From a virus, in the IMG/VR virus record IMGVR_UViG_3300035698_006183, positions 24,797 through 88,796 of that record: DNA of 64,000 bases. One strand, written 5' to 3'. Below the pieces are notes generated by a model. It saw only the letters and a list, made by a program, of their open reading frames with translations. It made no database searches and was not told where the DNA came from. Position numbers and translations under genes: made by a program. Every line of letters starts with the position of its first letter. Position 1 is the first letter of the stretch. Below are positions 40,409 through 55,685 of this stretch, one piece after another.

Positions 40409-40443
40409 TCCAGTTATCTGTTGCGAGCCTGAGCAAAATTAAA

Positions 40444-40480
40444 GCCCCGATAGGTTAATCCTGTCGGGGCCTTTTTATTT
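40444..40480. terminator. Strong bidirectional rho-independent terminator
   Basis: An 11-bp GC-rich stem (GCCCCGATAGG / CCTGTCGGGGC, one G-U pair) with a 5-base loop is followed on the + strand by CTTTTTATTT. On the - strand the stem is followed by a weaker T-rich run (TTTAATTTT). It lies exactly between the convergent genes at 40013-40408 (+) and 40479-41417 (-), and its T run overlaps the stop codon of the latter. It separates the tail/envelope transcript from the accessory genes. Confidence 0.9.
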
Positions 40481-41417: not shown

Positions 41418-41438
41418 AATCAAAGTACCTCCTTACAT

Positions 41439-41468
41439 CAACAACTCGAAACTCAGACCAACTAAGCC
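41439..41468 (-). promoter_or_regulatory. Phage promoter candidate GGCTTAG-N14-GAGTTGTTG (copy 1)
   Basis: Read on the - strand, GGCTTAG and GAGTTGTTG are separated by exactly 14 bases and end 21 bases before the ATG of the HARP-like gene. One of five identical-architecture copies in the window. Upstream is AT-rich. Confidence 0.75.
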
Positions 41469-41475
41469 AATTCTT

Positions 41476-41601
41476 TTAAAAGGTGCTAAGAAATGCTGAG
41501 ACTTGGTCACTGCAGCCAGAACATTGGCTGAAACCAGCGGCCACGAGGCCGATAACGACAACTACAACCATGAGTTCCACGAGTGTGTAACCTTTTTTCA
41601 T
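41476..41601 (-). CDS. 41-aa peptide with class III (prepilin) signal sequence
   Basis: ATG at 41601 (leftward), TAA at 41478-41476; AAGGA lies 7-9 bases upstream. The first 23 residues read MKKG-YTLVE-LMVVVVVIG-LVAAGF, an almost textbook prepilin-peptidase site: two basic residues, cleavage Gly, aromatic +1, Glu at +5, then an unbroken hydrophobic helix. After the helix only 18 residues remain, with a CxxC pair ('QCSGC'), so there is no pilin globular domain. If processed by the host PilD-type peptidase it would be a 37-residue mini-pseudopilin able to enter a type IV pilus or type II secretion assembly. It is co-directional with its neighbours, between the 63-aa gene and the HARP-like gene. 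Confidence 0.75.
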   Translation of the reverse strand: MKKGYTLVELMVVVVVIGLVAAGFSQCSGCSDQVSAFLSTF

Positions 41602-41641
41602 TGTTCGATCCTTTCAAGTTAGGGTTTAGTATCTAAAGCAA

Positions 41642-41833
41642 TCAACAGTTGGGTACAACTACGTAACAGAAACCATCTTGGAGTTTAGGGTCAAATCTGA
41701 TATAAACCCTGTCAGCCTTGAAAGGGACCATTTCACAATCCCCACCGATCTCTATTAGATTTTTCAGATGATCCTCAAGAAGAAAAGGTTTTTGATCAGT
41801 GTATGTGGATTCTATTGAGTTCTGTTCGGCCAT
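41642..41833 (-). CDS. Small hypothetical protein, 63 aa
   Basis: ATG at 41833 with AAAGGT about 8 bases upstream. The product is a small acidic protein with beta character ('RVYIRFDPKLQDGFCYVVV') and no membrane segment. It lies 12 bases after the stop of the 105-aa gene and 40 bases before the prepilin-like gene on the same strand, so probably in one transcript. No family is recognised. Confidence 0.55.
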   Translation of the reverse strand: MAEQNSIESTYTDQKPFLLEDHLKNLIEIGGDCEMVPFKADRVYIRFDPKLQDGFCYVVVPNC

Positions 41834-41845
41834 GATAGTTTACCT

Positions 41846-42163
41846 TTAGGATACGAAAGCCGTAGCAATACGGTTCAGGTCTTTAATAATATCTTTGAAC
41901 GCTTCTGGGTGGATGTTAAGAGCTAGTTCAATCTGGTAATCCCGTTGGGGGTTTTTACTGATAATATTTGAGAAACCATTGTTCTCCGTCCATTTTTCCA
42001 GACGAGCATAACTCTGGAAACGGTAGGTGCTGTCATAATGGATGTTAATCTTGAATCTCTGAGTGCCAATACCAAACAAAATCGTTTGGTTGTAGTTACA
42101 TTCATTCTGTAGGTCTGCAAGAAAACCAGTGTCTTCAATAATAGTGATTTCAGCTTTAGCCAT
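41846..42163 (-). CDS. Hypothetical protein, 105 aa
   Basis: ATG at 42163 with GGAG 7 bases upstream. The protein is soluble, with mixed alpha/beta content and no recognised motif. It is the first gene of a leftward operon starting from the promoter candidate at 42203-42232, 39 bases upstream, and followed by the 63-aa, prepilin-like and HARP-like genes. The function is unknown. Confidence 0.6.
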   Translation of the reverse strand: MAKAEITIIEDTGFLADLQNECNYNQTILFGIGTQRFKINIHYDSTYRFQSYARLEKWTENNGFSNIISKNPQRDYQIELALNIHPEAFKDIIKDLNRIATAFVS

Positions 42164-42202
42164 TATATGCTCCGTTTCAGTAAATTTTAATATTCTCTAC
42201 CA

Positions 42203-42232
42203 CAACAACTCGAAACTCTGATAAACTAAGCC
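42203..42232 (-). promoter_or_regulatory. Phage promoter candidate GGCTTAG-N14-GAGTTGTTG (copy 2)
   Basis: On the - strand GGCTTAG, 14 bases, GAGTTGTTG, ending 39 bases before the 105-aa gene. Its inner spacer ends in GAGTTTC, shared with copies 1 and 5. It forms a divergent pair with the + strand copy starting at 42247, 14 bases away. Confidence 0.75.
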
Positions 42233-42246
42233 GAGAAAATTATTTT

Positions 42247-42276
42247 GGCTTAGTTGCTCCTACTTCCGAGTTGTTG
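42247..42276 (+). promoter_or_regulatory. Phage promoter candidate GGCTTAG-N14-GAGTTGTTG (copy 3)
   Basis: Exact GGCTTAG and GAGTTGTTG with a 14-base spacer, 43 bases upstream of the WGR gene start. A T-rich stretch (TATTTT) precedes it. Divergent partner of the copy at 42203-42232. Confidence 0.75.
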
Positions 42277-42319
42277 TAGTGTAAGACGGAAACGTCATTT
42301 AAACCAGGAGATGAAAAGA

Positions 42320-42922
42320 ATGGCACTGTTAATGTTACAAGACGCTGAAAATACTGCTAAAAGGATGCGTCCGTGGTCTCTCAGACTGGAATTTACAGGG
42401 GTCAATGCAAACAATAAAAATGGAGTTAGTGATAAATATTGGTATGCCACCGGACGAGGGCTGAATGAAGCCGTCGAAATCGGATGGGGTGCCGTAGGAA
42501 AAAAATCTCAAACATTACTCACCACATGGGCGGAACTTAGGAACAGGCTTCCAGACAAGCTCGCCAAGGGCTATATGTATGTTAGTCATCCCTATGTCCG
42601 AATGTCTGCTGGTAATATTGCCAAGATGCTCGGTCAAGTTCCAACACCTCCGCCTCCCTCACCCAAGACGACAGCACCTGCCAAGAAACCGAAGCAGGTA
42701 GCTGTGTCGTCCCAACCTTCAAGTAATTGGGTGATGGGTGCTGCTCAGAAAGCTCTGGGTCGACCGTGGGATTTGATTTGGAGCCTCCAGATTATGCGGA
42801 AGAATACACGAGTTTTTGGCTTCACAGCTTTAGACAGGGGTGGTAAAGAACTTCTGAAATTTGATGTAGATGGTGGCCGAGAATTTGCTCGAGATCACAA
42901 TCTGGACATTATTTTTATATAA
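42320..42922 (+). CDS. WGR-domain protein
   Basis: About 200 aa. In-frame ATGs lie at 42254, 42311 and 42320. AGGAG at 42306-42310 touches 42311 and is 9 bases from 42320, so 42320 is chosen; a start at 42254 would lie inside the promoter element. Residues about 35-95 follow the WGR pattern ('KYWYATGRGLNEAVEIGWGAVG', key W, G-W-G and G). WGR domains occur in PARPs and bacterial DNA-associated proteins and bind nucleic acid. A Pro/Lys-rich linker (about 110-140) leads to a small C-terminal alpha/beta domain. It is driven by the promoter candidate just upstream. The exact role is unknown. Confidence 0.65.
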   Translation: MALLMLQDAENTAKRMRPWSLRLEFTGVNANNKNGVSDKYWYATGRGLNEAVEIGWGAVGKKSQTLLTTWAELRNRLPDKLAKGYMYVSHPYVRMSAGNIAKMLGQVPTPPPPSPKTTAPAKKPKQVAVSSQPSSNWVMGAAQKALGRPWDLIWSLQIMRKNTRVFGFTALDRGGKELLKFDVDGGREFARDHNLDIIFI

Positions 42923-42935
42923 AATGTCGTTTTTT

Positions 42936-42965
42936 GGCTTAGTTACTCTAAGTAGCGAGTTGTTG
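42936..42965 (+). promoter_or_regulatory. Phage promoter candidate GGCTTAG-N14-GAGTTGTTG (copy 4)
   Basis: Exact core halves with a 14-base spacer, beginning 14 bases after the WGR gene stop and ending 39 bases before the Lcl lipoprotein ATG. A run of six T precedes it. Confidence 0.75.
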
Positions 42966-43004
42966 TAGTAAGAGGCAACAAAGCCTGAATAAAGGAGCAA
43001 GACA

Positions 43005-43790
43005 ATGAAACATTTAATAAAAACAGCAATCCTGACAGCCATTTTGATTATTTCCCTTACAGGTTGTGGAACCATCATAAGTGTTGGTGACGGCAATCCC
43101 TTTGAAGACGGTGACGTAGATTCCGAAGGAACTGAACTCGATGGTGATGTAGAAGATTCTGAAAACGAAGCACCTTTACCTGATGGTGACACGGAAATTA
43201 CCGAAGATTCCGAAGATACCGAAGATACCGAAGATACCGAAGGTGAAGACACTGAGGATACCGAAGGTGAAGACACTGAGGATTCCGAAGATGTTGAGCT
43301 TGTTTGTGATGAGCCCGATGATTTTAGTGATTTAATTTGGCTTTTTGCTGAAGATATGGATAATAATCTAATAACGGAATTACATATAAATATAACTTGG
43401 AATCAAGCTAACAACTACTGTGAAGGTCTGGAACTTGATGGTTTTGATGACTGGAGACTACCTACAATCCACGAACTTCGTTCATTGATAATTGAAGATT
43501 CCTGTCCCGAAGCTGAAGAATGTGGCCTCATAGACCGTTGCTTACAAGGACTTGAAGAAGACAGTTCTTGTAATAAGATATGTGATTGGGACCAGAATAT
43601 AAATCCTGAAGGTTATGGTGACCTTGATTATGTTATAAGTAGTGTGAGTTATTGGTCATCTACAGAATCTACAGTTGAAGATGAACATTGGATTTTGAAT
43701 TTTGCACATGCTTCATTGAATAGTGGTAATGAAAACCATATACTTGCTGGAACATGTGTCCGTTCAGATGAGGACGAGGACATTCTATAA
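43005..43790 (+). CDS. Lipoprotein with acidic repeats and Lcl/DUF1566-like domain
   Basis: 261 aa, ATG 43005 behind AAGGAG. A signal peptide with lipobox 'SLTGC' (C21) is followed by a very acidic Asp/Glu/Thr linker (about 28-98) containing tandem DTEGEDTE repeats. Residues about 125-255 show the Lcl C-terminal/DUF1566 pattern: 'TWNQANNYCEGL', 'DDWRLPTIHEL', 'YWSST', 'HWILNF' and a final 'CVR'. These C-type-lectin-like domains are found in surface proteins of many bacteria, often myxobacteria and relatives. The mature protein is probably tethered to the outer membrane and extends outward. Expression in infected cells could alter the surface, for example block receptors. Its own promoter candidate lies upstream; the stop overlaps the next start (TAATG). 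Confidence 0.75.
   Translation: MKHLIKTAILTAILIISLTGCGTIISVGDGNPFEDGDVDSEGTELDGDVEDSENEAPLPDGDTEITEDSEDTEDTEDTEGEDTEDTEGEDTEDSEDVELVCDEPDDFSDLIWLFAEDMDNNLITELHINITWNQANNYCEGLELDGFDDWRLPTIHELRSLIIEDSCPEAEECGLIDRCLQGLEEDSSCNKICDWDQNINPEGYGDLDYVISSVSYWSSTESTVEDEHWILNFAHASLNSGNENHILAGTCVRSDEDEDIL
43233..43280 (+). repeat. Two perfect 24-bp tandem repeats in the lipoprotein linker
   Basis: The 24-bp unit beginning GATACCGAAGG and ending GACACTGAG is repeated twice head to tail (43233-43256, 43257-43280) and flanked by shorter GAAGATACC 9-mers from about 43203. It encodes the acidic DTEGEDTE linker. Identical units at DNA level point to recent slippage. Confidence 0.85.
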
Positions 43791-44002
43791 TGGACATGAT
43801 TTATCGGGTAGCCATAACGGTTAGCCCCGACCCTACAGACGATACTCCACAATACAGAGAGGTCACTGCCAATAGTGACCTCTCTGCTATTGGTAAAGCT
43901 CTCGAACTGGCTCACAAGATGACCCCTCCCAAAGCCCCTAAAGAAGTTTGGGTTCATGCTTGGGGTAAAGATTTTCATGTGATAGAGACACCTACTGGGT
44001 AG
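43790..44002 (+). CDS. Small hypothetical protein, 70 aa
   Basis: ATG 43790 overlaps the lipoprotein stop (TAATG), so translation is coupled. The protein is soluble with a beta-alpha layout ('YRVAITVSP', 'SAIGKALELAHKM', 'EVWVHAWG') and no known motif. Its coding sequence contains a perfect 13-bp inverted repeat at 43855-43886. The family is not recognised. Confidence 0.6.
   Translation: MDMIYRVAITVSPDPTDDTPQYREVTANSDLSAIGKALELAHKMTPPKAPKEVWVHAWGKDFHVIETPTG
43855..43886 (+). other. Perfect 13-bp inverted repeat (hairpin) inside a gene
   Basis: CAGAGAGGTCACT and its exact reverse complement flank a 6-base loop GCCAAT. No T run follows, so it is not a normal terminator. It would form a very stable mRNA hairpin within the 70-aa gene, or act as a protein binding site. 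Confidence 0.75.
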
Positions 44003-44045
44003 AATTATCATACTATAACCCCACGCCTGTTGAGAGGTAACACTT

Positions 44046-44381
44046 GTGAATGACGAGGAAATCAGAACAGAAGGCAAATATATTGTCATCTATGAAAAAA
44101 AATCTGGAAGGATGCCAGAGTATGGTTCAGTATCCCAAGTTAAAGTTGGGGATGTTGTAAATATATATGGAGACGAAGGCCATCAGGCTTTTAAAGTTGA
44201 TAAGATAACTGGTTCTAAGTGGACCAAGAAGATACGTTCAGCCCCAACTTCTTATCATGGATTCGTCCTTACTGGAGCACAGACCATAGACCCCCGAACT
44301 ATCCGTCGAATACTACGACTGAAAGAAGGGGAGAAACATGCCCCTACGATGGAAGAACGTGAAAAAGCCGACAAGGACTAA
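44046..44381 (+). CDS. Hypothetical protein, 111 aa
   Basis: Starts at GTG 44046 with GAGAGG 9 bases upstream. The middle ('VGDVVNIYGDEGHQAFKVDKI') suggests a small SH3-like or KOW-like beta barrel; the C-terminus is a charged helix. The stop overlaps by 4 bases with the stop of the convergent gene on the - strand. The function is unknown. Confidence 0.55.
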   Translation: MNDEEIRTEGKYIVIYEKKSGRMPEYGSVSQVKVGDVVNIYGDEGHQAFKVDKITGSKWTKKIRSAPTSYHGFVLTGAQTIDPRTIRRILRLKEGEKHAPTMEEREKADKD

Positions 44382-44662
44382 GTTCTGAGTATCTTCTGTA
44401 GTCGGGCAATCTGTCCCTTCAGATGCTTTTGAGCAATTACCTTTGCTCCTTCGGGTGTTTCTGCATGTCCAAGTGTTTCTGTATGTTCCCACCAATACTG
44501 GTCATCCACACCATTAAACTCAGACTCTGTAACCTTTTCAACTTGTGTTTGGCAGGTATACTCAATTCTACCCCCTGAGAACTCCTCGGGTCCAACATGG
44601 TAACGATAACCAAAATCCTGTATTTCACAAACTTCTGCTTCTCCTGATTCTTCCCACTTCAT
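44378..44662 (-). CDS. Hypothetical protein, 94 aa
   Basis: ATG at 44662 with AAGGAG 8 bases upstream. The protein has two cysteines and a C-terminal charged helix, and no membrane segment. It lies 16 bases after the stop of the helicase gene on the same strand, so it is likely co-transcribed with it. No family is recognised. Tail-to-tail overlap with the + strand gene ending at 44381. Confidence 0.55.
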   Translation of the reverse strand: MKWEESGEAEVCEIQDFGYRYHVGPEEFSGGRIEYTCQTQVEKVTESEFNGVDDQYWWEHTETLGHAETPEGAKVIAQKHLKGQIARLQKILRT

Positions 44663-44678
44663 AATTCTTCTCCTTTTT

Positions 44679-47264
44679 TCAAAGACTGATTTTATCTATC
44701 AGTTTTTCTTTCGTCACTGCATGTTCAATGTAAGATTCATTGATGAACTGACTGGAAATTCCAGAGTGTTGGTTCGGGATGTCAATCATTACACAGCGTT
44801 CCATTGCCCTTGTAATGGCCACATAAGCCAACCGACGCTCTGACCATAGCTCTGAACATTCAGGCATGGTATCCTTCTTCTTCCGTGTCCGTGGGAACTT
44901 CCCACCAATCATAGGAACGTACATGTTCCGAACTTCCAAACCTTTCCAACTATGAACTGTGCCGATGGTGACAGCATCTCGGCCTATATGGGCGACAGTA
45001 TCTGCTGTAGAAATCTTCTCGTTCACTTCTTGAAGTGTTCGAATGAATTCCATTGTGGGTCCTAGCTCGTCTTTGTCCTTCATCAAATCTAACAGAGGCT
45101 CGATGGGAGCCATTGCCTGTTCCAGAACCATCGTTTCGGAAGGAACTCCCGTTTCAGACTGACTGGCCAAGTCACCCATGATTCTATCGTTGTCCAGGAT
45201 GCCCTGAATCATCGTCTGCTGCAATGTTTTGTCGTCTATGCCTGTCAGGGTCATGATGTTGGAGACCAGCCCCAGAGGGCTTCCTGTGAACTCTGTGACT
45301 TTTTTTACATTCTCTGCAAAATGCTCAGCATATTCAGACCATTCTCCGAAGCTGTAGATTTCTTTCCAGCCCCCAGACGTGAGCCATTCACTCCAACCAC
45401 CGACGGCCAAGGACTTCATCTTGGCAAAGAACTTCTGGCCAATCAGGGAACGAGGACTCTTAGCTGCCAGAGACAGAGCTTTCTCTACTTCTTCATCGGT
45501 GCTATTCAGTCCTTTCTCAGCAATCGTCAGCCAGGCAATCAGAGCTTTGGTGTTGGTGTCCTTGAAGAACCTGACATTGGATTTGAAAGGGATGCCTTGT
45601 TTAATCATCTCAGCACTGTACAAGTAGGCTTCTGCATTGGAACGAACCCCGATGCCGAAATCTGAATACTTGACGGAATCTCCACCGGTGTTCTTGAAGA
45701 ATTTGATATCATCAGCAATAGAAGCTGCAGCGGAGGCCGTCGTCGGCTCAGTTCTCTGGATAACATAACCAGAGCCATTCCGTTTGACATCAGCTTTACA
45801 GACCATTGGCACTTGATGTTTGTTGTTTGAGATGAGTTTGTCAGCACACCTGATGATATCCTCACCTGACCTGTAGTTCAAATCCAGGATTCGAGTGTCG
45901 AATACACCCTGGTCTTCGGTGAGGTCAGACTTCTTGATGAACTCGTCAGGCTCAGCCCCACGGAATTCGTAGATAGCCTGCCGGTCGTCACCAATCAGAG
46001 CATAGGTGTCAGCAGTCATGTCGCCTGACTCCTTCGGCTCCATCGAGTCAGGGTCAAGTTCACCTGAAATCAGGCCGAATAGGAGGTATTGAACTTGGTT
46101 GAGGTCTTGTGCTTCATCTACCAGGATAATTCTATACATTTTTTGAATCTCTTGAAGTATCTGGGGGTCTCCAGATAGAGCTGTGACAGCATCAATCAGA
46201 AGATCATCGAGGTCACCACAGCCAACGAAGCTGGGTTCTCCATCAGCACTCATGAGCCACTCATAGGCTCCGTAAACGGCAGCTTCTGTAGAGTGTGGGT
46301 CGAAGGGTCCGTGGCCTGCCCATGCTTCTGAGGGGCTAATTCCTTTCCCTTTGAAGACACTGATGGCATTCTTGAATCCACCGATGGGGAGCAGTTTAGT
46401 TTCTCCTCCCTCAAGCTCTCGGGTCATTTTCCGACCTCGGTTGAACCATTGGTTAGCTGGACGTTTGTAGAACACGTAATTCTCCAGGCCGAACCTGGAA
46501 GCAGCTACTTTCGGGATGGGGGTGGCCGTATCCATCTGGGTGATGGGAGGTTTTATCTTGGCCAGCATGTTGACTAGCATCTTTCGTTGTTTCCAAGTGA
46601 AACCGCCTGGGTCTCTGTCCTTGATACCATGAAGGAAAGGTAGCACGGTTCCTCGAACCCAACTGGCTGGTCCAGGTGACCATTTGTGGGCAGCATCATC
46701 GTAGAACAGCAAAGCTCTGTCCATAATCAGGGTGTGTTCGTCAGATGAAACAGGGTACTGAGGGTCTAAGGCCATTGGCATACCTACCGTGTCCTGTACT
46801 TCTCTGGGGCCATCTTCCCAGAAACACTCTGGGTCTGGAGCTGTTGTTTCCTGAACAGAGTTGAAAGATACTTGCTGCATGGCCAGCCTGACTAATGTAG
46901 TCTGATTCCACCATTCGTTTTTTCCGAAGTATCGTGCTCGACGATACGAGGGAGCCACAGAGTTCAGGATTCTCCCTGCAATGGAATGGGTGGTTCCGAA
47001 GGTGTAGCTTTTATCTAACTCCACACCAAATTCTTTTACTCGTCGAATCAACTCTGAGGCTGCTTTGGTAGTGAAGGAAGTGGCCAGAATTTGTTGGGGG
47101 TCTACTCCCAATTCATTGGCATGATAGGCAACCTTGGCAGCCAGGGTTCGTGTTTTCCCTGACCCTGCTCCAGCAGCTATTAGAACTTTCCCTCGACTCA
47201 TCATAGCTTTCTCTTGGTCGGGGGATAATTCAGCTTTTTTTCCTGTCTCTGTCGAATACTTCAT
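44679..47264 (-). CDS. UvrD/PcrA-like superfamily 1 DNA helicase
   Basis: 861 aa, ATG at 47264 with AAGGA 7 bases upstream. The SF1A motifs are in order: Q-motif region 'LSPDQEKAM', Walker A 'AGAGSGKT' (about 31-38), Ia 'ATSFTTKAASEL', Walker B 'IILVDEAQDLNQ' (near 380), III 'ALIGDDRQAIYEFRGA', V 'VTIGTVHSWKGLE' and VI 'RLAYVAITRAME'. These enzymes unwind DNA 3'-5' in repair, recombination and replication restart. It is longer than UvrD (about 720 aa), with extra sequence between Ia and II (about 130-330). It is transcribed away from the metallophosphoesterase gene, with a 52-base divergent region between. Confidence 0.92.
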   Translation of the reverse strand: MKYSTETGKKAELSPDQEKAMMSRGKVLIAAGAGSGKTRTLAAKVAYHANELGVDPQQILATSFTTKAASELIRRVKEFGVELDKSYTFGTTHSIAGRILNSVAPSYRRARYFGKNEWWNQTTLVRLAMQQVSFNSVQETTAPDPECFWEDGPREVQDTVGMPMALDPQYPVSSDEHTLIMDRALLFYDDAAHKWSPGPASWVRGTVLPFLHGIKDRDPGGFTWKQRKMLVNMLAKIKPPITQMDTATPIPKVAASRFGLENYVFYKRPANQWFNRGRKMTRELEGGETKLLPIGGFKNAISVFKGKGISPSEAWAGHGPFDPHSTEAAVYGAYEWLMSADGEPSFVGCGDLDDLLIDAVTALSGDPQILQEIQKMYRIILVDEAQDLNQVQYLLFGLISGELDPDSMEPKESGDMTADTYALIGDDRQAIYEFRGAEPDEFIKKSDLTEDQGVFDTRILDLNYRSGEDIIRCADKLISNNKHQVPMVCKADVKRNGSGYVIQRTEPTTASAAASIADDIKFFKNTGGDSVKYSDFGIGVRSNAEAYLYSAEMIKQGIPFKSNVRFFKDTNTKALIAWLTIAEKGLNSTDEEVEKALSLAAKSPRSLIGQKFFAKMKSLAVGGWSEWLTSGGWKEIYSFGEWSEYAEHFAENVKKVTEFTGSPLGLVSNIMTLTGIDDKTLQQTMIQGILDNDRIMGDLASQSETGVPSETMVLEQAMAPIEPLLDLMKDKDELGPTMEFIRTLQEVNEKISTADTVAHIGRDAVTIGTVHSWKGLEVRNMYVPMIGGKFPRTRKKKDTMPECSELWSERRLAYVAITRAMERCVMIDIPNQHSGISSQFINESYIEHAVTKEKLIDKISL

Positions 47265-47316
47265 CAGGGTCCTTTATTTTCATTGTGGGTAGGGTATTAG
47301 ATAATAGGAGGTTCTA

Positions 47317-48045
47317 ATGAACATACAAATTATCAGTGATATCCATGCCGAATTCTATCAAGATGGTGGCCATTCCTTCGTAAAAACTCTTGTTCCTAAA
47401 GATAATACCCAAATTTTGGTGATTGCAGGGGATTTCTGTAAGGTAGATCAACACAGAGAGCTTGTCCCAATCCTGCTCAAGGCTTACCCTCATGTCATTA
47501 TGGTAGCTGGGAATCATACCTATTACCAGAGTAGTTATGAAGAAGTCTGGGAAGAGCTGAATAAGCTCACTGAGAAGTATGAAAACTTCCATGTTCTGGA
47601 GAACAGCTCCGTAACCATAGAAGGCCAGCGGTTCATTGGGGCTACTATGTGGTTCCCGGACACAGAAGAAGCAAGACCCCACCAGGGAATGCTTAATGAT
47701 TTCCATGTCATTCAGGGTTTCAGAACGTGGGTATTTGAGGAAAATGCTAAATCTGTGAAGTATCTCACGGAAAATGTTAAGAATACTGATGTGGTTGTAA
47801 CTCACCACCTCCCAAGTTTTCAGGTATCTTCTTCAAAATGGGCTACATCTCCACTCCAGCCTTTCTATATCTGTGATATGGAGAAACTCATTGTTGACAA
47901 ACAACCTAAACTCTGGGTGTTTGGCCATACTCATGATAGTCACGACTCTACCATCAAAAAAACTCGGCTGATTTGTAATCCTTTCGGATATGCCGATTAT
48001 GATGAAAACCCTGACTACCAGAAGAACCTGATAATTTCCGTTTGA
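47317..48045 (+). CDS. Calcineurin-like metallophosphoesterase
   Basis: 242 aa, ATG 47317 behind AGGAGG. All metal-binding motifs are visible: 'DIH' (8-10), 'AGDF' (37-40), 'GNHTYY' (65-70), 'VVTHHLPS' (near 163) and 'FGHTHDS' (near 206). The family hydrolyses phosphodiesters or phosphomonoesters using two metal ions; substrates range from nucleotides to nucleic acid. Length fits a stand-alone phage phosphoesterase. It begins the rightward replication block. Confidence 0.85.
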   Translation: MNIQIISDIHAEFYQDGGHSFVKTLVPKDNTQILVIAGDFCKVDQHRELVPILLKAYPHVIMVAGNHTYYQSSYEEVWEELNKLTEKYENFHVLENSSVTIEGQRFIGATMWFPDTEEARPHQGMLNDFHVIQGFRTWVFEENAKSVKYLTENVKNTDVVVTHHLPSFQVSSSKWATSPLQPFYICDMEKLIVDKQPKLWVFGHTHDSHDSTIKKTRLICNPFGYADYDENPDYQKNLIISV

Positions 48046-48085
48046 TGGTTAAATCCCTATAAACACCATAAGGTGGAGGTACTGA

Positions 48086-48862
48086 ATGCACCGAATGAAC
48101 TTGGTCAGCTATAAAGGGCTGTTAGTTTGCCGTGAAATGGCAACGGCTCTTCAGATAGCAGATAAAAAAGCTGCTGAGATTGGTAAATGGCAGATGATCC
48201 TGGAAGGTCCCGAAGCAGGGCTTGAAATGGATAATCCTTTGTCATTGAAACCAGCAGGCCGTGAGATTCATGTTCATCTGGATAGAGAGGACATCACCGA
48301 CCCCCAGACGAAGCTGAATGCTTTGTGGGGATTCTTGGTGCCTCTGGGGTTTGTTCCTCATCAACGGTATCCTCTGGCCGACCAACCCAAGGCCAATGTA
48401 TTCTATTTTCTGGGTCCTTGGAAGATTATTCTCGACCAGTTGATGTCTGAAGGTCGAGGACATCTGGCTTGGCCGTCAGTTTGTGCAGCTACCCAGACAG
48501 ATGTGGGTACATGGGCAAGTGATAACCCTGATCAGAGATTCGTTCAAGGACAGCTTCACAGGATTGGGAAGAATGTTGGTGCAGTAGATGGCATCATCGG
48601 TCCCCGGACAGTTGAAGCTATGGAGAGTCTGGGGTTGAATCGGGCTGTGTTTGCAAAAGTACAAGAGTTTTTAAGGACCGCAGAACCTCCCCAGAGAGAA
48701 CCGATGGCTCGAACTACTGGGCATGTAGCTATCCCAGGCTGGGATTTGAATGTGGTGGCTTTTGGAGGTGTGAAGTCAGTACAAACACGTCAGGGTGCAA
48801 CCCTCACCATTGATGGTCCTGGACGGGTCATTATTGATGTTGACGGAGGAGTTCCAAAATGA
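48086..48862 (+). CDS. Protein with peptidoglycan-binding-like motif, 258 aa
   Basis: ATG 48086 with AGGTGGAGG upstream. Residues about 152-185 ('VQGQLHRIG...GAVDGIIGPRTVEAM') match the core of the PG_binding_1 helix bundle ('vDGiiGprTv.A'). The N-terminal 140 residues and the C-terminal beta region (about 205-258, Asp/Gly-rich) are not recognised. No catalytic lytic domain or signal peptide is seen. It lies in a replication operon and its stop overlaps the next gene's start, so the motif may have another use here. The function is uncertain. Confidence 0.5.
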   Translation: MHRMNLVSYKGLLVCREMATALQIADKKAAEIGKWQMILEGPEAGLEMDNPLSLKPAGREIHVHLDREDITDPQTKLNALWGFLVPLGFVPHQRYPLADQPKANVFYFLGPWKIILDQLMSEGRGHLAWPSVCAATQTDVGTWASDNPDQRFVQGQLHRIGKNVGAVDGIIGPRTVEAMESLGLNRAVFAKVQEFLRTAEPPQREPMARTTGHVAIPGWDLNVVAFGGVKSVQTRQGATLTIDGPGRVIIDVDGGVPK

Positions 48863-49392
48863 ATTCAATGGATATAATCATTCGGAGTGCTAAGGAAATC
48901 ACTAAAGAGTTTTCTAATGAAGTTGGTAAAATTGCCAAACTTTACATGAGGCAACTGACAGCTCAGTTAGTAGGAGCTGGTGTCCCTGTGGCATATCTTC
49001 CATATGCTTATAAAATTGTTTTTGAAGGTCAGCGTCGTTGGCGTGTTCTCCCGAAAGATAAATATCTTATCTCTGCTCTGAACGGTGTGGTTGTTGATGA
49101 AATGGTAGTTCCCAACTACAATCGGTCACAGAAAGCAGACCAAGACTACAGTGCTAATATCAATGAAGCTCTCAAAGAAACAGCTAAATGGGCACGAAGC
49201 CATCTTGCCCGTCCTATGCAGCACACCTACACGAAGATTGCTACCAAGTACGCAATCAAAGCTAATAAAGAGATGCCTGAGTATTCAGTTGGTGAGTGGC
49301 TGGAGGATTTCCAGCAGACTATTTCAGAATCTCCTAGTCTTTATCCAGGTGGAAACAGAACAGCAGAGATTTTACACACCATTCTCAAATAA
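48859..49392 (+). CDS. Hypothetical protein, 177 aa
   Basis: ATG 48859 overlaps the previous stop (ATGA) and has GGAGGAG 8 bases upstream. The protein is soluble and basic, mostly helical, without cysteines. No family is recognised. It is co-translated with the preceding gene and followed by the SNF2 helicase, so a DNA-metabolism role is possible by association only. Confidence 0.55.
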   Translation: MNSMDIIIRSAKEITKEFSNEVGKIAKLYMRQLTAQLVGAGVPVAYLPYAYKIVFEGQRRWRVLPKDKYLISALNGVVVDEMVVPNYNRSQKADQDYSANINEALKETAKWARSHLARPMQHTYTKIATKYAIKANKEMPEYSVGEWLEDFQQTISESPSLYPGGNRTAEILHTILK

Positions 49393-49458
49393 AAAATTCG
49401 TTTTGGGGTAATATAGAAGATCGAAGTTTGACCCTGTTCATGAGGGAGATGTATATCT

Positions 49459-51069
49459 ATGTCAAATATGGCTCAAGTTCAAGCCCAATTAAAGAAGATT
49501 AGGGAACGGAAAGACCTTGCCCTAAAACCAACTAAATACCTTAAAGAAACCTTCACTGATTTCGATGGGACTGAGAAGCCTCTGAAAATCAGATACTATC
49601 AGGTTCAGGGTATTTTCCACCTCTTACTGATGAAACGGTTTATATTGGGTGACGATACAGGGTTAGGGAAAACCCTTGAATCTATTGGAGCCCTTTGCTA
49701 TCTCTGGGCTAAGAACCCGAACCAAAAAGTCATCATCCTGACAACGAAGTCGGCCACTAACCAGTGGGCTGGTGAGTTTCAGAAGTTTACCCGAGGTGTA
49801 ACAACCATCTTAGGTAAAGGACCCCCCAAAGTCAGAGCAAAAGCCCGAGAAGCCTTTGCCCAAGCTACTGGTCCAACAGTCATGATTATGGGCTACCGTT
49901 CCGCAGTGCAGGATTTCACCCACCTTCAACATTTCAAAGATTTCGTTCTGATTGCTGATGAAGCAACTGCTTTCAAAAACCCCAAGACTCAGGTTCACCA
50001 GGTTTGCCGTCATTTGGCTGCCAACGCCGACCGAGCATGGGGATTGACTGCTACACTTATAAAGAACAATCTGATGGAAGGTTATGGGATTTACCAGGTG
50101 ATTGTACCAGGACTGTTCGAGATGTCTGCCAATCAGTTCATGCTTTATTACTGTTTGGTTCGGATGCAGCCACTTCCAAGAAGCAACCGAAAAGTTCCTG
50201 TCATCATGGGCTATGCCAAGTCCAAAGTCCTGGAGTTCAAGGACACGATTGCCCCGTACTTCTTGGGACGGCCTAAATATGACGTGGCTTCCGAGTTGCC
50301 ATCCTTGACAATCCAGAACATTCCAGTAGAGCTGACAAGTGAGCAGGATTCCAGATACAAGGACGCTTTGGAAGGTCTGCTGGAGATTGGCACTGAAGAA
50401 GGACTGGTCGAGAAGGAAACCACAAAACTGACGGCTATCACATACTGTCAGGAGATTGTGAATGACCTGGAGTTGATTGGCGTACCTGATTGTAAATCCC
50501 CGAAGCTGGAGACCCTGATAGACCTGTTATCTGACGGGGATTTTGCTGAGGAAAACGTCATTGTCTTCACCCGATTCAGGAAGATGGTGGACATTATCAT
50601 GCCTCGGTTGAAGAAAGCCAAGATTTCTGCCTGTCGTATCACAGGGACTGAAGACGAGAACCAACGTGAGAAGGCCAAGGCTGATTTTCAGAACCCCAAA
50701 TCTGATGTCCGTGTGGCTTGTATTACAATGGCCGGTTCTGATGCTATTAACCTTCAGGCTGCTAAAGTTCTGATTTGCTATGATACTCCGTGGTCGGCTG
50801 GTGATTTCATCCAGTTGGTTGGTCGAATGATTCGTATCGGAAGCGTCCACGATGCCTGCTATGCCCTTCATCTGGTGGCCAAGAGCTACATGCATGGAGC
50901 CACGATTGACAAACGAGTCATGGATGTTTTGGGTAAGAAGATGGACTTGATTGAAACTGTCCTTGGTAAACGATTCAAGGGCCAAGAGGATACATCGGTT
51001 ATTGAAGTGTCTAATGATATATCGGACATTTTCAGTGGTTTGGTGAACGATGCTAAAGGATTATTATGA
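49459..51069 (+). CDS. SNF2-family DNA helicase/translocase
   Basis: 536 aa. Walker A 'GDDTGLGKT' (64-72), Ia 'IILTTKSATNQW', II 'LIADEATAFKN' (DEAT at 167-170 instead of DEAH), III 'WGLTATLI', IV 'VIVFTRFRKMV', V 'SDAINLQAAKVLI' and VI 'QLVGRMIRIGS' are in order. It is a compact Snf2/Rad54-type double-stranded DNA translocase, common in large phages and possibly used in replication-fork remodelling or recombination. A HARP-like domain, which in SMARCAL1 precedes this kind of motor, is encoded separately at 40479-41417. The next gene starts inside its stop codon. Confidence 0.88.
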   Translation: MSNMAQVQAQLKKIRERKDLALKPTKYLKETFTDFDGTEKPLKIRYYQVQGIFHLLLMKRFILGDDTGLGKTLESIGALCYLWAKNPNQKVIILTTKSATNQWAGEFQKFTRGVTTILGKGPPKVRAKAREAFAQATGPTVMIMGYRSAVQDFTHLQHFKDFVLIADEATAFKNPKTQVHQVCRHLAANADRAWGLTATLIKNNLMEGYGIYQVIVPGLFEMSANQFMLYYCLVRMQPLPRSNRKVPVIMGYAKSKVLEFKDTIAPYFLGRPKYDVASELPSLTIQNIPVELTSEQDSRYKDALEGLLEIGTEEGLVEKETTKLTAITYCQEIVNDLELIGVPDCKSPKLETLIDLLSDGDFAEENVIVFTRFRKMVDIIMPRLKKAKISACRITGTEDENQREKAKADFQNPKSDVRVACITMAGSDAINLQAAKVLICYDTPWSAGDFIQLVGRMIRIGSVHDACYALHLVAKSYMHGATIDKRVMDVLGKKMDLIETVLGKRFKGQEDTSVIEVSNDISDIFSGLVNDAKGLL

Positions 51070-51995
51070 CAAAGACTGATTACCCATCTGGGGATGGATT
51101 GCCAGACTGCCCTGAATGCCGAGGTAGAGGTGTCGTACCCCTGACGAGAGAAGAACGCCCCCCAATGGCTATTGGGGAAATAACTCGAATTTGCAGTTGT
51201 GTGATGGTTCGAGATGTGATGCAAAACCTGGAACGAGGCTGGAAGGGCTTATCGAAAGCCAACCCTATCAAATCGTCACCATTGACCGGTAAACACACGG
51301 ACAACGTGATGATTACTGCTACATCTTTTAAATTGAAACAACACCTTCGACACATTGCAGCCCGAAAAGGACCACGGTGGAATTTCCTCGTGGTGTCAGA
51401 TGCAACTCTGATGGATGCTTGGCTGTCTAAAGGCTTGAATGTTTACGACCCCGACATTGCTGGGATTCGTGAAGAAGACCGTCGGAAAATGGAGAAATCT
51501 CCCATCGAGGCTCTGTCCGAGTTGGTGGAACATGCTGCTTTGCTGGTTGTCTGTCTGGGTGTGAAGGCAGCTCGAAATTCTGCCATGCCCGAAGTCATGT
51601 TGGAGACCCTGACTCTCAGGGACTTCCGAGACAAACCGACATGGATTGTTGACCAACCTGCCTACCCGCTGATGGAAGGACACATATCATATAGTGTTCA
51701 TGTAGGTTCTCAGATTGAAGACTGGGAGCACATTGCATTAGACCCCTATGCAGGAGTGTCTTCGATGGATATCGGGACGGCTGTGCCAGGTGAAACTGCA
51801 CAAGCTAACCTCCCAACACCTTCCAGAAGACTTCCGGGTAGTTGCATACCTCGACAGAAACTAACACCTCCTGACCCTGTTTCACAGACAGCAGCTCCTT
51901 CTCATGTAGTCGGGGAACTTGATGTGGATGAGGAAATTAGACGTATGGAAGAAAAAGAACGTAAAAACAAATGGAAGAAAGGAGGAAGACATTGA
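51066..51995 (+). CDS. Helicase-loader-like protein, degenerate AAA+ with N-terminal zinc motif
   Basis: 309 aa, ATG 51066 overlapping the previous stop (ATGA). The N-terminus has 'CPECRGRGVV' and 'RICSC', the four-Cys arrangement seen in DnaC/DnaI-like loaders of phages. The following region ('NVMITATSFKLKQHLRHIA', 'NFLVVSDATLMDAWL', 'AALLVVCLG', 'RDFRDKPTWIV') follows the layout of a DnaC-type AAA+ core, but the Walker A lysine loop and the Walker B acidic residues are missing. It directly precedes a DnaB-like helicase gene, where loaders are usual. The C-terminal 80 residues are a disordered Pro-rich and then charged tail. I infer a non-ATPase helicase adaptor. Confidence 0.55.
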   Translation: MTKTDYPSGDGLPDCPECRGRGVVPLTREERPPMAIGEITRICSCVMVRDVMQNLERGWKGLSKANPIKSSPLTGKHTDNVMITATSFKLKQHLRHIAARKGPRWNFLVVSDATLMDAWLSKGLNVYDPDIAGIREEDRRKMEKSPIEALSELVEHAALLVVCLGVKAARNSAMPEVMLETLTLRDFRDKPTWIVDQPAYPLMEGHISYSVHVGSQIEDWEHIALDPYAGVSSMDIGTAVPGETAQANLPTPSRRLPGSCIPRQKLTPPDPVSQTAAPSHVVGELDVDEEIRRMEEKERKNKWKKGGRH

Positions 51996-53638
51996 AAACA
52001 CTACTTCGTTCAACATTCATTGCAGCACCCAGTGACAATCCTGACCTGTATATACGAAATTACATCAAGCTCGATGATTCCTCTTTACAGTTTGACCTTC
52101 CTGAAGATGTGACCATCTGGGAATTTGTCAAACAGTTTGTCAGAGCTCATAACCATGTCCCTGACATCAGTACCTTACAAACTCACTTCTCCAGAATTGG
52201 AGAGGATACTGTTCTTGAACGGCTTCGAGTGTTAGAGAACCTTCCAGGCTTCTCTCAGGGTGATTTTGATACCCGACTGGGAGTTAAAGCTGAGGAACGT
52301 CGTGTCCGTGAAGTTACGGAACTGATGAAAGATGCCAGTACAATCTTGACAACAGGATTAGAGATCAAAAAAGGCAGAGAGAAAAAGATACTGAAGGGTC
52401 CTATGGACTCGGTTCATTACTTCTTGGAGAAAAGCCACAGTGTGGTAGCTCCAGTCACAGGCTCTCGTCTGTCTGGAGAAGTAACCCAAGATGGAGAAGA
52501 CTTCACCCGCCGGTATGAACGTGTTGAGGCCGACCCTCTGGCTGGAATCGGCCAACATACTGGATTAACTCAAATTGATGTTGCTACTAATGGTGCCAGA
52601 AAGTTCGAACTGTGGATTCACGCAGCGTTCACTGGCGGGATGAAGTCTACTTGGGTTTTGAACTGGTGTTACAATCAGGCAATCTACCACCTCCACTCCA
52701 GTCTGTTGTTCAGTCTGGAAATGCCCTATGAGCAATGCAGGAACCTTCTGTATGCCATTCACTCAAGCCATCCTAAGTTCAGGCTTATCAGATATTTCCT
52801 GGGCCTTCAATCGTCCCCCGTAGATACTGTAGGCTTGGAGTATGAGAATCTTCGTGATGGTACTTTGGACAGGTTCCATGACAATGCTAAACGATTCTTG
52901 TTCGATTACGTCGTACCTGATTTCAACGGCAAAGTTGTGGACGTGGATACTTGCCCCCTGACTGGGAACAAGTACCATGACCCAGTAACCAAAGAAGTCC
53001 TGAGCTGTACTGTGGACGAGATGGGCAAACCCTATCCGAAATCCAGTGAGTACGGGAAAATCCACATTGAAGTGGCTGACCCGAACAGGATGGACTTCAC
53101 GATGGATAATCTCAGGCAGAAGGCCGAGCTTATCTACTCCAAGAGTCCCTTCAGAATGATTGTCATTGATCATGTAAGTTTGCTTTCACCTCGTAAATGG
53201 GTGGCCAGCCGTACTGACAGAGATAATGAAATCATTCGTGATACGAAGAAACTGGCCATGTCGTTCAACAGAGGTGAGGGGATTGCTGTTGTGGCACTAT
53301 TCCAAATCTCTCGTGAGGGCCATAAGTCGGCTATGAAGATAAAAGAGAAGACAGGTTCAGCTCGGTATGAGTTGACAGCTCTCTCTTATGCCAATGAAGC
53401 TGAGAGGTCGGCAGATATCGTTACATCCTCCTGGATTGATGAGGACCTCATTGCTGCCAACAGGGTTCAGTTCCAGTGTTTAAAATCTCGTGATCAGAAA
53501 CCATTCGAGATGTTTTTGTCTCGTGTGGAATGGCCATGCCGTCGGATTCTGACATGTTTCGACATGCCGATGACCAGCACTCAGAATCAAGATGTTGGAG
53601 ACGAGGTAGACAAGCAGGCTGAATTGCTAGATATATGA
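51992..53638 (+). CDS. DnaB-like replicative DNA helicase
   Basis: About 548 aa from TTG 51992, which has GGAGG 6 bases upstream and overlaps the previous stop (TTGA). An upstream ATG at 51971 is in frame but has no ribosome site. The N-terminal helical domain is followed by the RecA-like core with the Walker A region 'AAFTGGMKST' (about 211-220), Walker B 'RMIVIDHVSLLS' (about 390), 'VVALFQISREG' (H3-like) and a C-terminal Arg-finger region. It would form a hexamer unwinding the phage fork. The P-loop has Met where the conserved Gly before Lys is expected. Length exceeds E. coli DnaB (471 aa), mainly by a linker insert around 290-370. Confidence 0.85.
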   Translation: MKTLLRSTFIAAPSDNPDLYIRNYIKLDDSSLQFDLPEDVTIWEFVKQFVRAHNHVPDISTLQTHFSRIGEDTVLERLRVLENLPGFSQGDFDTRLGVKAEERRVREVTELMKDASTILTTGLEIKKGREKKILKGPMDSVHYFLEKSHSVVAPVTGSRLSGEVTQDGEDFTRRYERVEADPLAGIGQHTGLTQIDVATNGARKFELWIHAAFTGGMKSTWVLNWCYNQAIYHLHSSLLFSLEMPYEQCRNLLYAIHSSHPKFRLIRYFLGLQSSPVDTVGLEYENLRDGTLDRFHDNAKRFLFDYVVPDFNGKVVDVDTCPLTGNKYHDPVTKEVLSCTVDEMGKPYPKSSEYGKIHIEVADPNRMDFTMDNLRQKAELIYSKSPFRMIVIDHVSLLSPRKWVASRTDRDNEIIRDTKKLAMSFNRGEGIAVVALFQISREGHKSAMKIKEKTGSARYELTALSYANEAERSADIVTSSWIDEDLIAANRVQFQCLKSRDQKPFEMFLSRVEWPCRRILTCFDMPMTSTQNQDVGDEVDKQAELLDI

Positions 53639-54852
53639 GAGCAATCTCTGTAGTCCGAAAACCAATGGAGTCAACAACTCCGATGAACTGTGTCCGATTC
53701 GGTACGGGAGCACTTAATATAGACCCGTGCCGAATCGGAACTCAGGAGAAAATCAAAGCGGGTGGGGCAGGTATGCTCCTATCCCACATCCGTGATGGAA
53801 AACCTGGGGAAGGTTCCGATTACAAACAGAATCCTGGAGGGCGGTGGCCGTCCAATGTCATCTTAAACCACCCAGAATCCTGTACCCCTGGGTATTGTGT
53901 ATCAGGATGCCCGATTCCTCAGATGGATGCTGATAGCCTTCAAGGTGGAATCCATGCTGCGGGTAATAAAAAGAAGGCTAAGACAACGGAGAAAGGTCAT
54001 ACTTTTAACTTTGCAGCCTTCGACCACAACCCTGATTACTATGGGGACTCTGGTGGGGCATCTCGGTTTTTCAAGTGTGTGAAAGAAGATAAACTCATGA
54101 ACATACCACAGGAACTATTAGATTACCTTATAACACTCATATCTACACCGACTATGGCAGCTCTGTACAAGGATGACATCAGTACGTGGGTAGTCGGTCT
54201 GCATCCCGACAACTCCTGGCCGGGTCTTGTAGCCTATGGGCAGCCTTCAGAAGAACAGGCTGCCGACCTGAAGAGAGTTCTGATGCCTGGGGCACACTTA
54301 CTACTGATTGCTCCTGATTCGGAGCCTACAGGCCACACAGGGACGTGTCGAGTTGAGGATGCAGGCTTTGAGATTCGTGATGCAATCCTGTGGGTTCAAG
54401 AAGCTGGCCATTTCCATTATGTCCCCAAGGCTTCACGTTCAGAACGAGAGGCTGGGTGTTATGCTATTGGCCCTCAGAAACGTGATGAGTCTCGTCAAGA
54501 AGGCGACCCTGGAGGTGACAATCCTCGGAATAGAGGGGTGAACCCTGTCAAGAACTTCCACCCTACAGTAAAGCCTATCAAGTTGATGGAACGGTTGTTA
54601 TCAGGTGTGCCTGTTAAAGACGGACCCATCCTTGACCCGTTTATGGGAAGTGGTTCTACTGGGATTGCCTGCCTACAAACTGGCCATGATTTCATTGGTG
54701 TGGATAGAGAAAAAGATTACGTCGGGATTTCAACATCTCGAATCAGACACTGGGATAGTGAACAAGGTTACATCCACCGACAGGTGGAATCAGATTATAA
54801 ACCAGAAGTTATCGAACAAGAGCCTGTAGATTTATGGGACATGGAGGACTAA
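53635..54852 (+). CDS. Variant amino-DNA-methyltransferase lacking the DPPY motif
   Basis: 405 aa, ATG 53635 overlapping the helicase stop. Residues 1-147 ('VVRKP', 'FGTGALNID', 'GGRWPSNVI', 'GDSGGASRFF') correspond to the middle region of common phage N4/N6 methyltransferases. Residues about 184-255 ('ISTWVVGLHPDNSW', 'LKRVLMPGAHLLLIAP', 'VEDAGFEIRDAILWV') look like the motif IV-V region, but DPPY is replaced by HPDN. The end is normal: 'HPTVKPIKLM' (309-318) and the SAM-binding 'DPFMGSGSTG' (334-343). Thus SAM binding is kept while the catalytic tetrapeptide is not. The separate gene at 57554 has the reverse set. The two may act together. Confidence 0.75.
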   Translation: MRAISVVRKPMESTTPMNCVRFGTGALNIDPCRIGTQEKIKAGGAGMLLSHIRDGKPGEGSDYKQNPGGRWPSNVILNHPESCTPGYCVSGCPIPQMDADSLQGGIHAAGNKKKAKTTEKGHTFNFAAFDHNPDYYGDSGGASRFFKCVKEDKLMNIPQELLDYLITLISTPTMAALYKDDISTWVVGLHPDNSWPGLVAYGQPSEEQAADLKRVLMPGAHLLLIAPDSEPTGHTGTCRVEDAGFEIRDAILWVQEAGHFHYVPKASRSEREAGCYAIGPQKRDESRQEGDPGGDNPRNRGVNPVKNFHPTVKPIKLMERLLSGVPVKDGPILDPFMGSGSTGIACLQTGHDFIGVDREKDYVGISTSRIRHWDSEQGYIHRQVESDYKPEVIEQEPVDLWDMED

Positions 54853-55662
54853 ATGCCAAACAAAGCCATTGGAATCGTTGGGGTTGATTACTGTGGTTCC
54901 ACTCTGCTGAATTATATTTGGGATGGTATCCCTGGTGTATTTGGTGCCGGTGAAACTCATTGGGTTTTAGATAAACCTGAAATCAATTGCCGACAATGCA
55001 ATCGTCCTCGATGCTTGGTATGGAAACCAGAGATTCGAGAGTATTTACCTCAAGCAGCAGACAATGGGAAATGGTGGGATGCACTTCGAGAAATGGCCAA
55101 GGCTGAAATCGTTGTGTCTTCTGACAAGAAAGCTGTCCATTACGAACAGTTTGGAGTTCCTTCCCGACTTGTTTTCAGTTTCAAGGAGCCACTGGCTCAT
55201 ATTTTCAGCCGAGCTGCTGTCAAGTTGGGGAAAAGTGATGCTGCTGTTAACATTGAAATTAACAATGACACATTGGATGAGGCTATCACTTGGTGGGTAG
55301 ATGAAACCAATACCACTCTTGATTGGCTTATGGAACAGGATTCAGAGTTCAAGGTTGTCAAGATGGAGTTGTTAGTGGATAAACCTGCTGCTCACCTGAA
55401 AGCCTTCTGTAAATGGGCTGGTGTGAAATATGATGCTACGGCACTAACATTCTGGCGGAAACGTCACCATTATATCGGTGGTAATCATGCCCTAACTCGT
55501 CTGAAACGCTCATACTATTTCTTCAGGAAGCTCAAGAAAGACGAACGCTGGAAAGATTGTTTCACACAGGAACAAGTGGATAGAATCCAGAGTGCTGATG
55601 ATGTGAAAGCTGTCACAAAACGTCTGGAAGCTCTCTTAACCCCTGAAAAGTTACTGGCTTAG
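54853..55662 (+). CDS. Sulfotransferase-like protein
   Basis: 269 aa, ATG 54853 right after the methyltransferase stop. The N-terminal 'VDYCGSTLLNYI' (11-22) with 'GAGETHWV' (31-38) fits the PAPS 5'-phosphosulfate loop of sulfotransferases ('SGST.L', then 'GE'). 'RLVFSFKEPLAHIFSRAA' (105-122) sits where the 3'-phosphate motif ('R.P...S') belongs, with Lys-Glu-Pro instead of Arg-x-Pro. 'VVKMELLVDKPAAHLKAFCKW' and 'HHYIGGN' also match the family layout. A CxxC/C cluster (C46, C49, C54) is unusual. The substrate is unknown; candidates are surface glycans or a small molecule. The stop codon is inside the next promoter element. Confidence 0.65.
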   Translation: MPNKAIGIVGVDYCGSTLLNYIWDGIPGVFGAGETHWVLDKPEINCRQCNRPRCLVWKPEIREYLPQAADNGKWWDALREMAKAEIVVSSDKKAVHYEQFGVPSRLVFSFKEPLAHIFSRAAVKLGKSDAAVNIEINNDTLDEAITWWVDETNTTLDWLMEQDSEFKVVKMELLVDKPAAHLKAFCKWAGVKYDATALTFWRKRHHYIGGNHALTRLKRSYYFFRKLKKDERWKDCFTQEQVDRIQSADDVKAVTKRLEALLTPEKLLA

Positions 55663-55685
55663 AAGGTCAGAGTTTCGAGTTGTTG
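55656..55685 (+). promoter_or_regulatory. Phage promoter candidate GGCTTAG-N14-GAGTTGTTG (copy 5)
   Basis: Exact core halves with a 14-base spacer whose last seven bases (GAGTTTC) match copies 1 and 2. It overlaps the sulfotransferase stop codon and ends only 16 bases before the ATG at 55702, so transcription must begin close to its 3' end. Confidence 0.75.

Follow-up and report, generated by a model that had tools for sequence, protein, structure and literature searches.

Phages of the phiEco32 and 7-11 type encode a sigma factor that redirects the host RNA polymerase to repeated phage-specific promoters, and related phages of this type are described as having related but shifted motifs, whose alignment needs a one-base gap (PMC4331800). 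In jumbo phages that have no polymerase, sigma factors are often encoded and are likely to act at phage-specific promoters (PMC13282480; PMC7824862), and Group 2 jumbo phages are described as lacking a polymerase while having sigma factors of their own (PMC7824862). Here we report on a 30-bp element, GGCTTAG-N14-GAGTTGTTG, present in five copies in a stretch of viral DNA of 64,000 nucleotides (the window), which covers positions 24,797-88,796 of the 88,796-bp record IMGVR_UViG_3300035698_006183 (G0, also G000). The element is almost certainly a promoter, and we propose that it serves a dedicated, non-structural regulon in a clade of jumbo phages.

The records compared with G0 were G1 (G001, IMGVR 3300035698_007794), G2 (G002, IMGVR 3300035698_029165, 54,593 bp), G3 (G003, IMGVR 3300028840_001395, 435,804 bp), G4 (G004, IMGVR 3300025669_002088, 125,741 bp), G5 (G005, IMGVR 3300035698_004448), G6 (G006, IMGVR 3300037470_001039), G7 (G007, IMGVR 3300009320_000004, 122,781 bp) and the uncultured, unannotated phage LR745208.1 (GX, 485,034 bp); G0, G2, G4 and G7 are fragments. 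Since G0 is colinear with the 435.8-kb G3 over the structural block and the replication genes, and since DnaB and core proteins are common to the relatives and GX, the window comes from a jumbo phage, and 88.8 kb of its genome is known. The DnaB of G0 has identities of 91% with that of G2, 58% with that of G3 and 53% with that of G4. Proteins shared with GX include DnaB (51%), a baseplate-wedge-like protein (38%) and another core protein (54%), and GX and G3 are linked by 85 reciprocal best matches. The first 64.7 kb of G0 forms a long block of large co-directional genes, which we call structural on account of two of its proteins, one similar to a baseplate wedge subunit and the other to baseplate proteins; the rest are unannotated.

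As in phiEco32 and 7-11, phage-specific promoters would be repeated, with related but shifted motifs between phages (PMC4331800), the reading by a sigma factor being a proposal in the present case. The consensus described for phiEco32 and 7-11 is, however, a single 9-bp block (tAATGTAtA) that serves middle and late genes (PMC4331800), whereas the element consists of two blocks with a near-fixed gap, occurs in far larger phages and reaches at most 59 copies. Promoters before structural as well as middle genes, a trait of the phiEco32 type, were not found: no element lies in the tail and structural block of G0 or in the 340-380 kb region of G3. The ECF-like (extracytoplasmic function) sigma factor of that type may have counterparts in G3 and GX, where weak sigma matches lie below the cut-offs. 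As in Group 2 jumbo phages (PMC7824862), sigma-like proteins are present and no polymerase was found in the records tested, and the host enzyme would presumably be used. The phages phiKZ and AR9 also have jumbo-phage-specific promoter classes (PMC13282480) but possess multisubunit polymerases of their own, unlike G0-G4, most of them fragments, in which no beta subunit was found. The T4 middle promoters share with the element a phage-type upstream box near -30 but have a -10 region of host consensus, whereas here the downstream half is phage-specific as well (PMC6755090). With regard to sigma-28 (FliA) promoters (PMC4183435), GX has TAAA-N15-GCCGATA and the window element has the same geometry, CTTA-N15-G, but the letters in the window differ (CTTA and GAGTTGTT) and no flagellar genes are involved.

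The five copies in the window

A search of the window for GGCTTAG-N14-GAGTTGTTG with up to three mismatches gave exactly five matches, all with none: 41439-41468 (element 1) and 42203-42232 (element 2) on the minus strand, and 42247-42276 (element 3), 42936-42965 (element 4) and 55656-55685 (element 5) on the plus strand. This reproduces exactly the positions, strands and 14-bp spacer listed in an earlier note on this DNA. In 100 dinucleotide shuffles of the window the mean number of matches was 0.43 and the largest 3, and none of the shuffles reached five. When the gap was left free between 12 and 16 and the whole record was searched, only the same five copies were recovered and the reversed pattern, used as a control, gave none, so that the motif is not a common one inside the genes of this record. 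A weight-matrix scan of the record gave 42-48 bits for the five copies and 13.6 bits for the next-best site, the scores of the copies being inflated because the matrix was built from them.

All five copies are intergenic, that at 55656 overlapping the final 7 bases of an open reading frame (ORF) that ends at 55662 and whose stop codon lies within GGCTTAG. Each copy points towards a start codon that follows after about 16-43 bases, as the earlier note had described. Four of the five are packed within 1.6 kb (41439-42965), and elements 2 and 3 stand back to back, 14 bp apart. Conservation extends beyond the two halves noted previously, since positions 12, 13, 16, 18 and 21 of the 30-mer are invariant in all copies and GT occurs two bases past it in four of them.

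Versions of the element in related phages

A dyad search upstream of genes, made without a motif, returned among the top dyads CTTAT-N14-GAGTA in G3, GATCA-N15-GAGTA in G4 and TAAAA-N16-CGATA in GX. A second version of the search gave GCTTA-N14-GAGTA in G7 and the two-part motif in G0 too (4 copies), placed the top dyads of G2 within the downstream half of the element, and found no such dyad in G5 or G6. Refinement with iterated matrices yielded 59 sites in G3, 27 in G4, 56 in GX, 18 in G7 and 6 in G2; we chose the iteration and a site cut-off of 15 or 20 bits, and the counts are therefore somewhat loose at the edge. From the last accepted site to the next, the score fell from 55.2 to 0.4 bits in G2, from 32.1 to 7.1 in G7, from 24.4 to 1.9 in G4, from 28.0 to 12.2 in GX and from 18.4 to 11.0 in G3. 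Single copies were found in G1 and G5.

The consensus reads GGCTTAGTT..TC..AGTTTCGAGTTGTTGTAGTAAGAG in G0, GGCTTAGTTTCC..GACTTCTCGGTTGTTGTAGTAAGAG in G2, GGCTTATTTC-N8-ACAGAGTAGTCTAGGTGAGG in G3, GGGATCATCT-N11-CAGAGTAG-N5-GTGAGG in G4, GGGGGCTTAG-N12-CGAGTAG in G7 and ATTTC.CTAAAAAGT..CCTTC.CGT.CCGATAGGGTATTGAGG in GX. Measured between the four-base block and the second one, the gap is 15 in G0, G3 and G4, 14 in G7, and 15 before GCCGATA in GX. Within each phage it is nearly invariant and adjacent gap lengths are almost empty, with 55 sites at 15 and 4 at 16 in G3, 27 at 15 in G4, 16 at 14 in G7 and 49 at 16 in GX.

Start codons preceded by a Shine-Dalgarno sequence were found within 50 bp downstream of 4/5 copies in G0, 3/6 in G2, 42/59 in G3, 22/27 in G4 and 35/56 in GX, compared with 4.5-9.8% of random positions (2000 per genome). 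On the opposite side, the corresponding counts were 0/5, 0/6, 7/59, 3/27 and 1/56. Start codons cluster 16-24 bp past the core in G3, GX and, in part, G4, where a second cluster lies at 35-43, and the Shine-Dalgarno sequence stands directly behind the element in G3, GX and partly G4. This arrangement agrees with the earlier suggestion of a phage-specific promoter from which transcription would start near the 3' end. Divergent pairs no more than 200 bp apart number 8 in G3, 2 each in GX and G4, and 1 each in G2 and G0; such a pair also stands beside the homologue of the 200-aa gene of element 3 in G2 and G4.

Homologues of that 200-aa gene bear the element in G0, G2, G3, G4 and G7, each in the local spelling. 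A gene encoding a 265-aa protein bears it in G2, G3, G4 and G7, and its weaker GX relative (28-33% identity) lies behind a low-scoring GX site. The gene of element 1, encoding a DUF6011 protein, bears the element in G0, G3 and G7, the local versions in G3 and G7 being at the same place, and the position of element 4 is also occupied in G2. We tabulated genes with tblastn homologues as those bearing the element in both records, in the first only, in the second only and in neither, the pairs of records not being independent. The tables were 5, 3, 2, 62 for G7-G3 (p 7.8e-5), 3, 3, 4, 51 for G4-G3 (p 0.017), 1, 1, 0, 32 for G0-G3 (p 0.059), 1, 1, 0, 31 for G2-G3 (p 0.061), 4, 3, 1, 37 for G7-G4 (p 1.1e-3) and 2, 0, 0, 23 for G2-G4 (p 3.3e-3). 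Judged by these sequence comparisons, the regulon is common to the G0-G7 group, GX standing outside that statement.

Elements are rare before core genes, 3 of 85 bearing one in G3 and 1 of 85 in GX (a gene was assigned at 29/59 and 28/56 sites, respectively). Of the GX sites, 26/56 fall in the first 40 kb, and this element-rich region may be an early or middle takeover region. The absence of the element from the tail and structural block, together with its rarity before core genes, speaks against late expression and is compatible both with the early timing suggested in the earlier note and with a middle one.

We propose that GGCTTA acts as the upstream (-35-like) half and GAGTTGTTG as the downstream (-10-like) half, and that transcription would start a few bases past the latter, just before the Shine-Dalgarno sequence. 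Of the features of a sigma-type promoter, the two blocks and the near-fixed gap are present, and the start site is bounded by the start codons 16-24 bp downstream only. A factor of the sigma type is probably what reads the element: most likely the host core RNA polymerase would act together with an alternative sigma-like factor, which in the lineage of the window would probably be phage-encoded, with the ECF-like proteins of G3 and GX as candidates. The statement as a whole, namely that the element is the promoter of a jumbo-phage regulon to which a phage-encoded sigma redirects the host polymerase, has in our view about an even chance of being correct. Should the specificity of the factor shift, all promoters of the regulon would shift with it, and the two-part architecture, the near-fixed gap and many of the target genes would persist.

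Retargeting a regulon is considered difficult, since a new specificity of the factor demands a matching change in each promoter. Since the same genes, such as the 200-aa gene, bear the element in five phages and in several spellings, the stages of such a switch would be readable from sequence. We tentatively suggest, while considering it rather doubtful in its entirety, that the clade keeps one architecture and a partly conserved regulon, that the letters of both halves are replaced wholesale and the gap shifts by a base as the phage sigma alters its specificity or a different host sigma comes into use, and that at least one member, GX, runs dozens of mostly small genes from a sigma-28-like promoter. 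If this were true, GX might need for its takeover a host in which the motility sigma is expressed, or a phage-made mimic of that sigma. No description of the motif was found in the literature searched; to that extent, what is new is the motif itself, the number of copies, the near-fixed bipartite form and the concerted change across the clade. Such promoters would supply orthogonal expression parts, and would allow gene timing to be predicted in uncultured jumbo phages, the genes of which are mostly unannotated.

Candidate readers and competing explanations

The earlier note had named a phage RNA polymerase or a sigma-like factor as the reader; the second is favoured by the geometry of the element, by divergent sigma-like proteins in two long relatives and by the lack of a beta-subunit match in five records. 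The sigma-like proteins, of 345 aa in G3 (158752-159789) and 244 aa in GX (74150-74884), have in common a region of 94 residues (47%), and sigma factors are what they match best (PF07638, E 0.025; TIGR02937, E 0.006 and 0.0017; PRK12536, E 0.001); the comparison with PDB entry 3mzy gave E 0.91. A second pair, of 390 aa in G3 (63738-64910) and 378 aa in GX, is weaker still as a sigma match. The single-sequence structure model of the 390-aa protein was unusable (mean predicted local distance difference test score 41; 67-84 in a C-terminal helix-turn-helix stretch). When the sigma candidates were searched against phage records, LR745208.1 alone was matched, or nothing. A 201-aa protein conserved in both phages (G3 31416-32021, minus strand; GX 419691-420284, minus strand, and 153886-154695, plus strand) contains two unmistakable sigma region-4-like helix-turn-helix units in tandem (PF08281, E 1.7e-12), and may serve another promoter class.

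Several results weigh against a phage-encoded sigma factor and its regulon. All matches of the sigma-like proteins fall short of the curated cut-offs, and G0, G2, G4 and G7, all of them fragments, yielded no sigma candidate; G0 has no region-4 match either. The 201-aa protein is a poor candidate reader because its recognition-helix residues are the same in G3 (31416-32021) and GX (419691-420284) despite their differing promoters. Among the sites, 9/59 in G3, 19/56 in GX and 5/27 in G4 lie inside ORFs of at least 100 aa, some of them surely spurious, as the simple picking used for this count often selects spurious ORFs in GC-rich DNA. None of 113 homologues bears the element in both GX and G3 (0, 2, 1, 110; p 1). 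A permutation with greedily picked ORFs showed weak overlap, with 1 shared target for G3-G7 (reached by 666 of 5000 permutations), 0 for G4-G7 and 3 for G3-G4 (52 of 5000), and is judged unreliable because spurious long ORFs mask real genes in the GC-rich records. Finally, a T7-type polymerase (PF00940) was matched in 0 of 7 records, but the control for this search responded nowhere, so that the result is uninformative and a single-chain phage polymerase may still be present.

We did not rate a phage-encoded sigma higher mainly because the GX sites fit the sigma-28 pattern, TAAA-N15-GCCGATAA, which E. coli FliA sites such as tar show (PMC4183435). In GX, 54/56 sites depart from this pattern at no more than 2 of 12 positions, and all 31 exact occurrences of TAAA-N15-GCCGATA are among the listed sites. 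An ECF-like sigma is not expected to read a sigma-28-type promoter, which again counts against a phage-encoded factor of that kind; GX may therefore use host FliA, or else a phage factor of like taste. The element could accordingly be read throughout by an alternative sigma of the host, flagellar sigma-28 in the case of GX, with a spelling that varies with the host, and the Pfam model for sigma region 2 found no match in GX even at E 10. We regard this as unlikely. A divergent sigma-like protein is present in GX, the five sites of the window differ from the sigma-28 pattern at 6 or 7 of 12 positions, and across G0, G2, G3, G4 and G7 the number of differing positions is 5 to 8 of 12, the patterns of these phages matching, to our knowledge, no host sigma. 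Moreover, host promoters form a continuous spectrum of scores, unlike the near-absence of intermediate scores here.

High-information and cleanly separated promoters are typical of phage polymerases, and direct recognition by an RNA polymerase of the phage's own, whether single-chain, crAss- or P23-45-like or carried in the virion, would also account for the element. The clade has giant unannotated proteins of up to 3877-3931 aa, and a scan of the G3-GX core proteins for DxDxD revealed one conserved DVDGD, in a family of 1380-1783 aa near the giant protein. The polymerase of P23-45, hidden within its tape-measure protein, is a precedent (PMC10770324). We nevertheless consider this explanation improbable. 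The DVDGD protein belongs to the structural gene order and matches a single PHROG, one of unknown function (E 0.084), the scan of the largest proteins for DxDGD gave no candidate, and the beta subunit (PF00562) was matched in 0/5 records (G0-G4), most of them fragments, and in 14/14 controls. The spacing of the element, which is bipartite over 30 bp, suits a -35/-10 pair better than a compact polymerase promoter such as the T7-like block of about 23 bp.

The letters of the MotA box of T4 are TGCTT(T)A, resembling the GGCTTA of the element, and the element might be envisaged as an activator box coupled with a core promoter, or as the operator of a phage repressor. The GAGTAG half of G4, taken by itself, is over-represented ahead of genes (8 occurrences, whereas 59 permuted words average 1.8), and the MotA box replaces the -35 region, centred near -30 (PMC6755090). 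This is nonetheless an explanation to which we give little credence: inspected by eye, the aligned copies contain no TATAAT-like -10 of host consensus and neither half resembles the hexamers of sigma-70 (TTGACA-N17-TATAAT), and the two halves are conserved jointly, each of them differing from phage to phage. Although repeats can spread through phage genomes, that the element should be a repeat with no role in transcription (an insertion footprint, or an RNA or translation element) is hardly credible, as the copies are directed at starts, keep a near-fixed internal gap with a varying distance to the start codon (two clusters in G4) and form divergent pairs, and no Rfam family was found in the window.

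Genes behind the elements and neighbouring features

Element 1 precedes a minus-strand gene at 40479-41423 (start at ATG 41417 or TTG 41423), whose 314-aa product, previously labelled HARP-like, has DUF6011 (PF19474, E 1e-11). Behind element 2 lies a minus-strand gene for a 105-aa protein (41846-42163) with a weak match to PF22721 (TBP-TOTE, the TATA-binding-like domain of TOTE conflict systems; E 9.5e-4, 19.2 bits against a cut-off of 27), which could be a DNA-binding regulator. The 200-aa protein behind element 3 (42320-42922, plus strand) had been labelled WGR and has no Pfam match at 0.1; its homologues in G2, G3, G4 and G7 are 45-71% identical. Element 4 lies between this gene and that of a 261-aa lipoprotein-like protein (43005-43790, plus strand), for which the label Lcl_C stands (PF07603, E 1.9e-15). 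The Lar-like label of the 213-aa protein behind element 5 (55702-56343, plus strand) is weak, with matches to PF14354 (E 2.7e-5, below the cut-off) and phrog_599 (E 1.2e-5).

An exact scan of IMG/VR with the window motif returned 23 stretches, of which one (G1) looks like a true copy by its flanks and spacer; the other 22, recurring coding-like families with unrelated spacers, were dropped by eye. A scan with the G2-type pattern recovered G2 and G5, and two stretches from the G3-type scan (L072 and L076) were dropped by eye as having no upstream GG block. Scanning with the 105-aa protein gave 16 stretches and 0 relatives, a scan with a 914-aa protein and a tblastn search of phage records with a 2120-aa protein gave no match, and a scan of genome contigs found a single weak match, in a metagenome bin, without pointing to a host.

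In G1 the single copy (24520-24549) shares a long intergenic stretch with a tRNA-Ser gene, and the gene that follows it at a distance of about 130 bp has a weak VWA match. When the two-part sites of G4 were masked, GAGTAG alone came first among 60 permuted words just before genes (8, mean 1.8), as at 116492, 103073 and 58159 on the minus strand and 43991 on the plus strand; these are perhaps a second, one-part promoter class. At about 40442-40477 of the window, between convergent genes, a GC-rich inverted repeat is followed by a T-run, likely a terminator between the structural block and the gene of element 1. The protein of 3877 aa encoded at 11568-23201 of G0 is conserved in G3 and GX and has no Pfam or PHROG match. 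At 61147-64000 of the window, three successive ORFs of a C5-methyltransferase region match a single ORF of G2 (34816-37455), and may represent a split gene or two genes. The homologues of the SNF2 helicase and DnaB in the relatives exceed those of the window by several hundred residues (G2 45629-49216, G4 112298-116479, G3 303844-306765), as if they carried inteins or other insertions.

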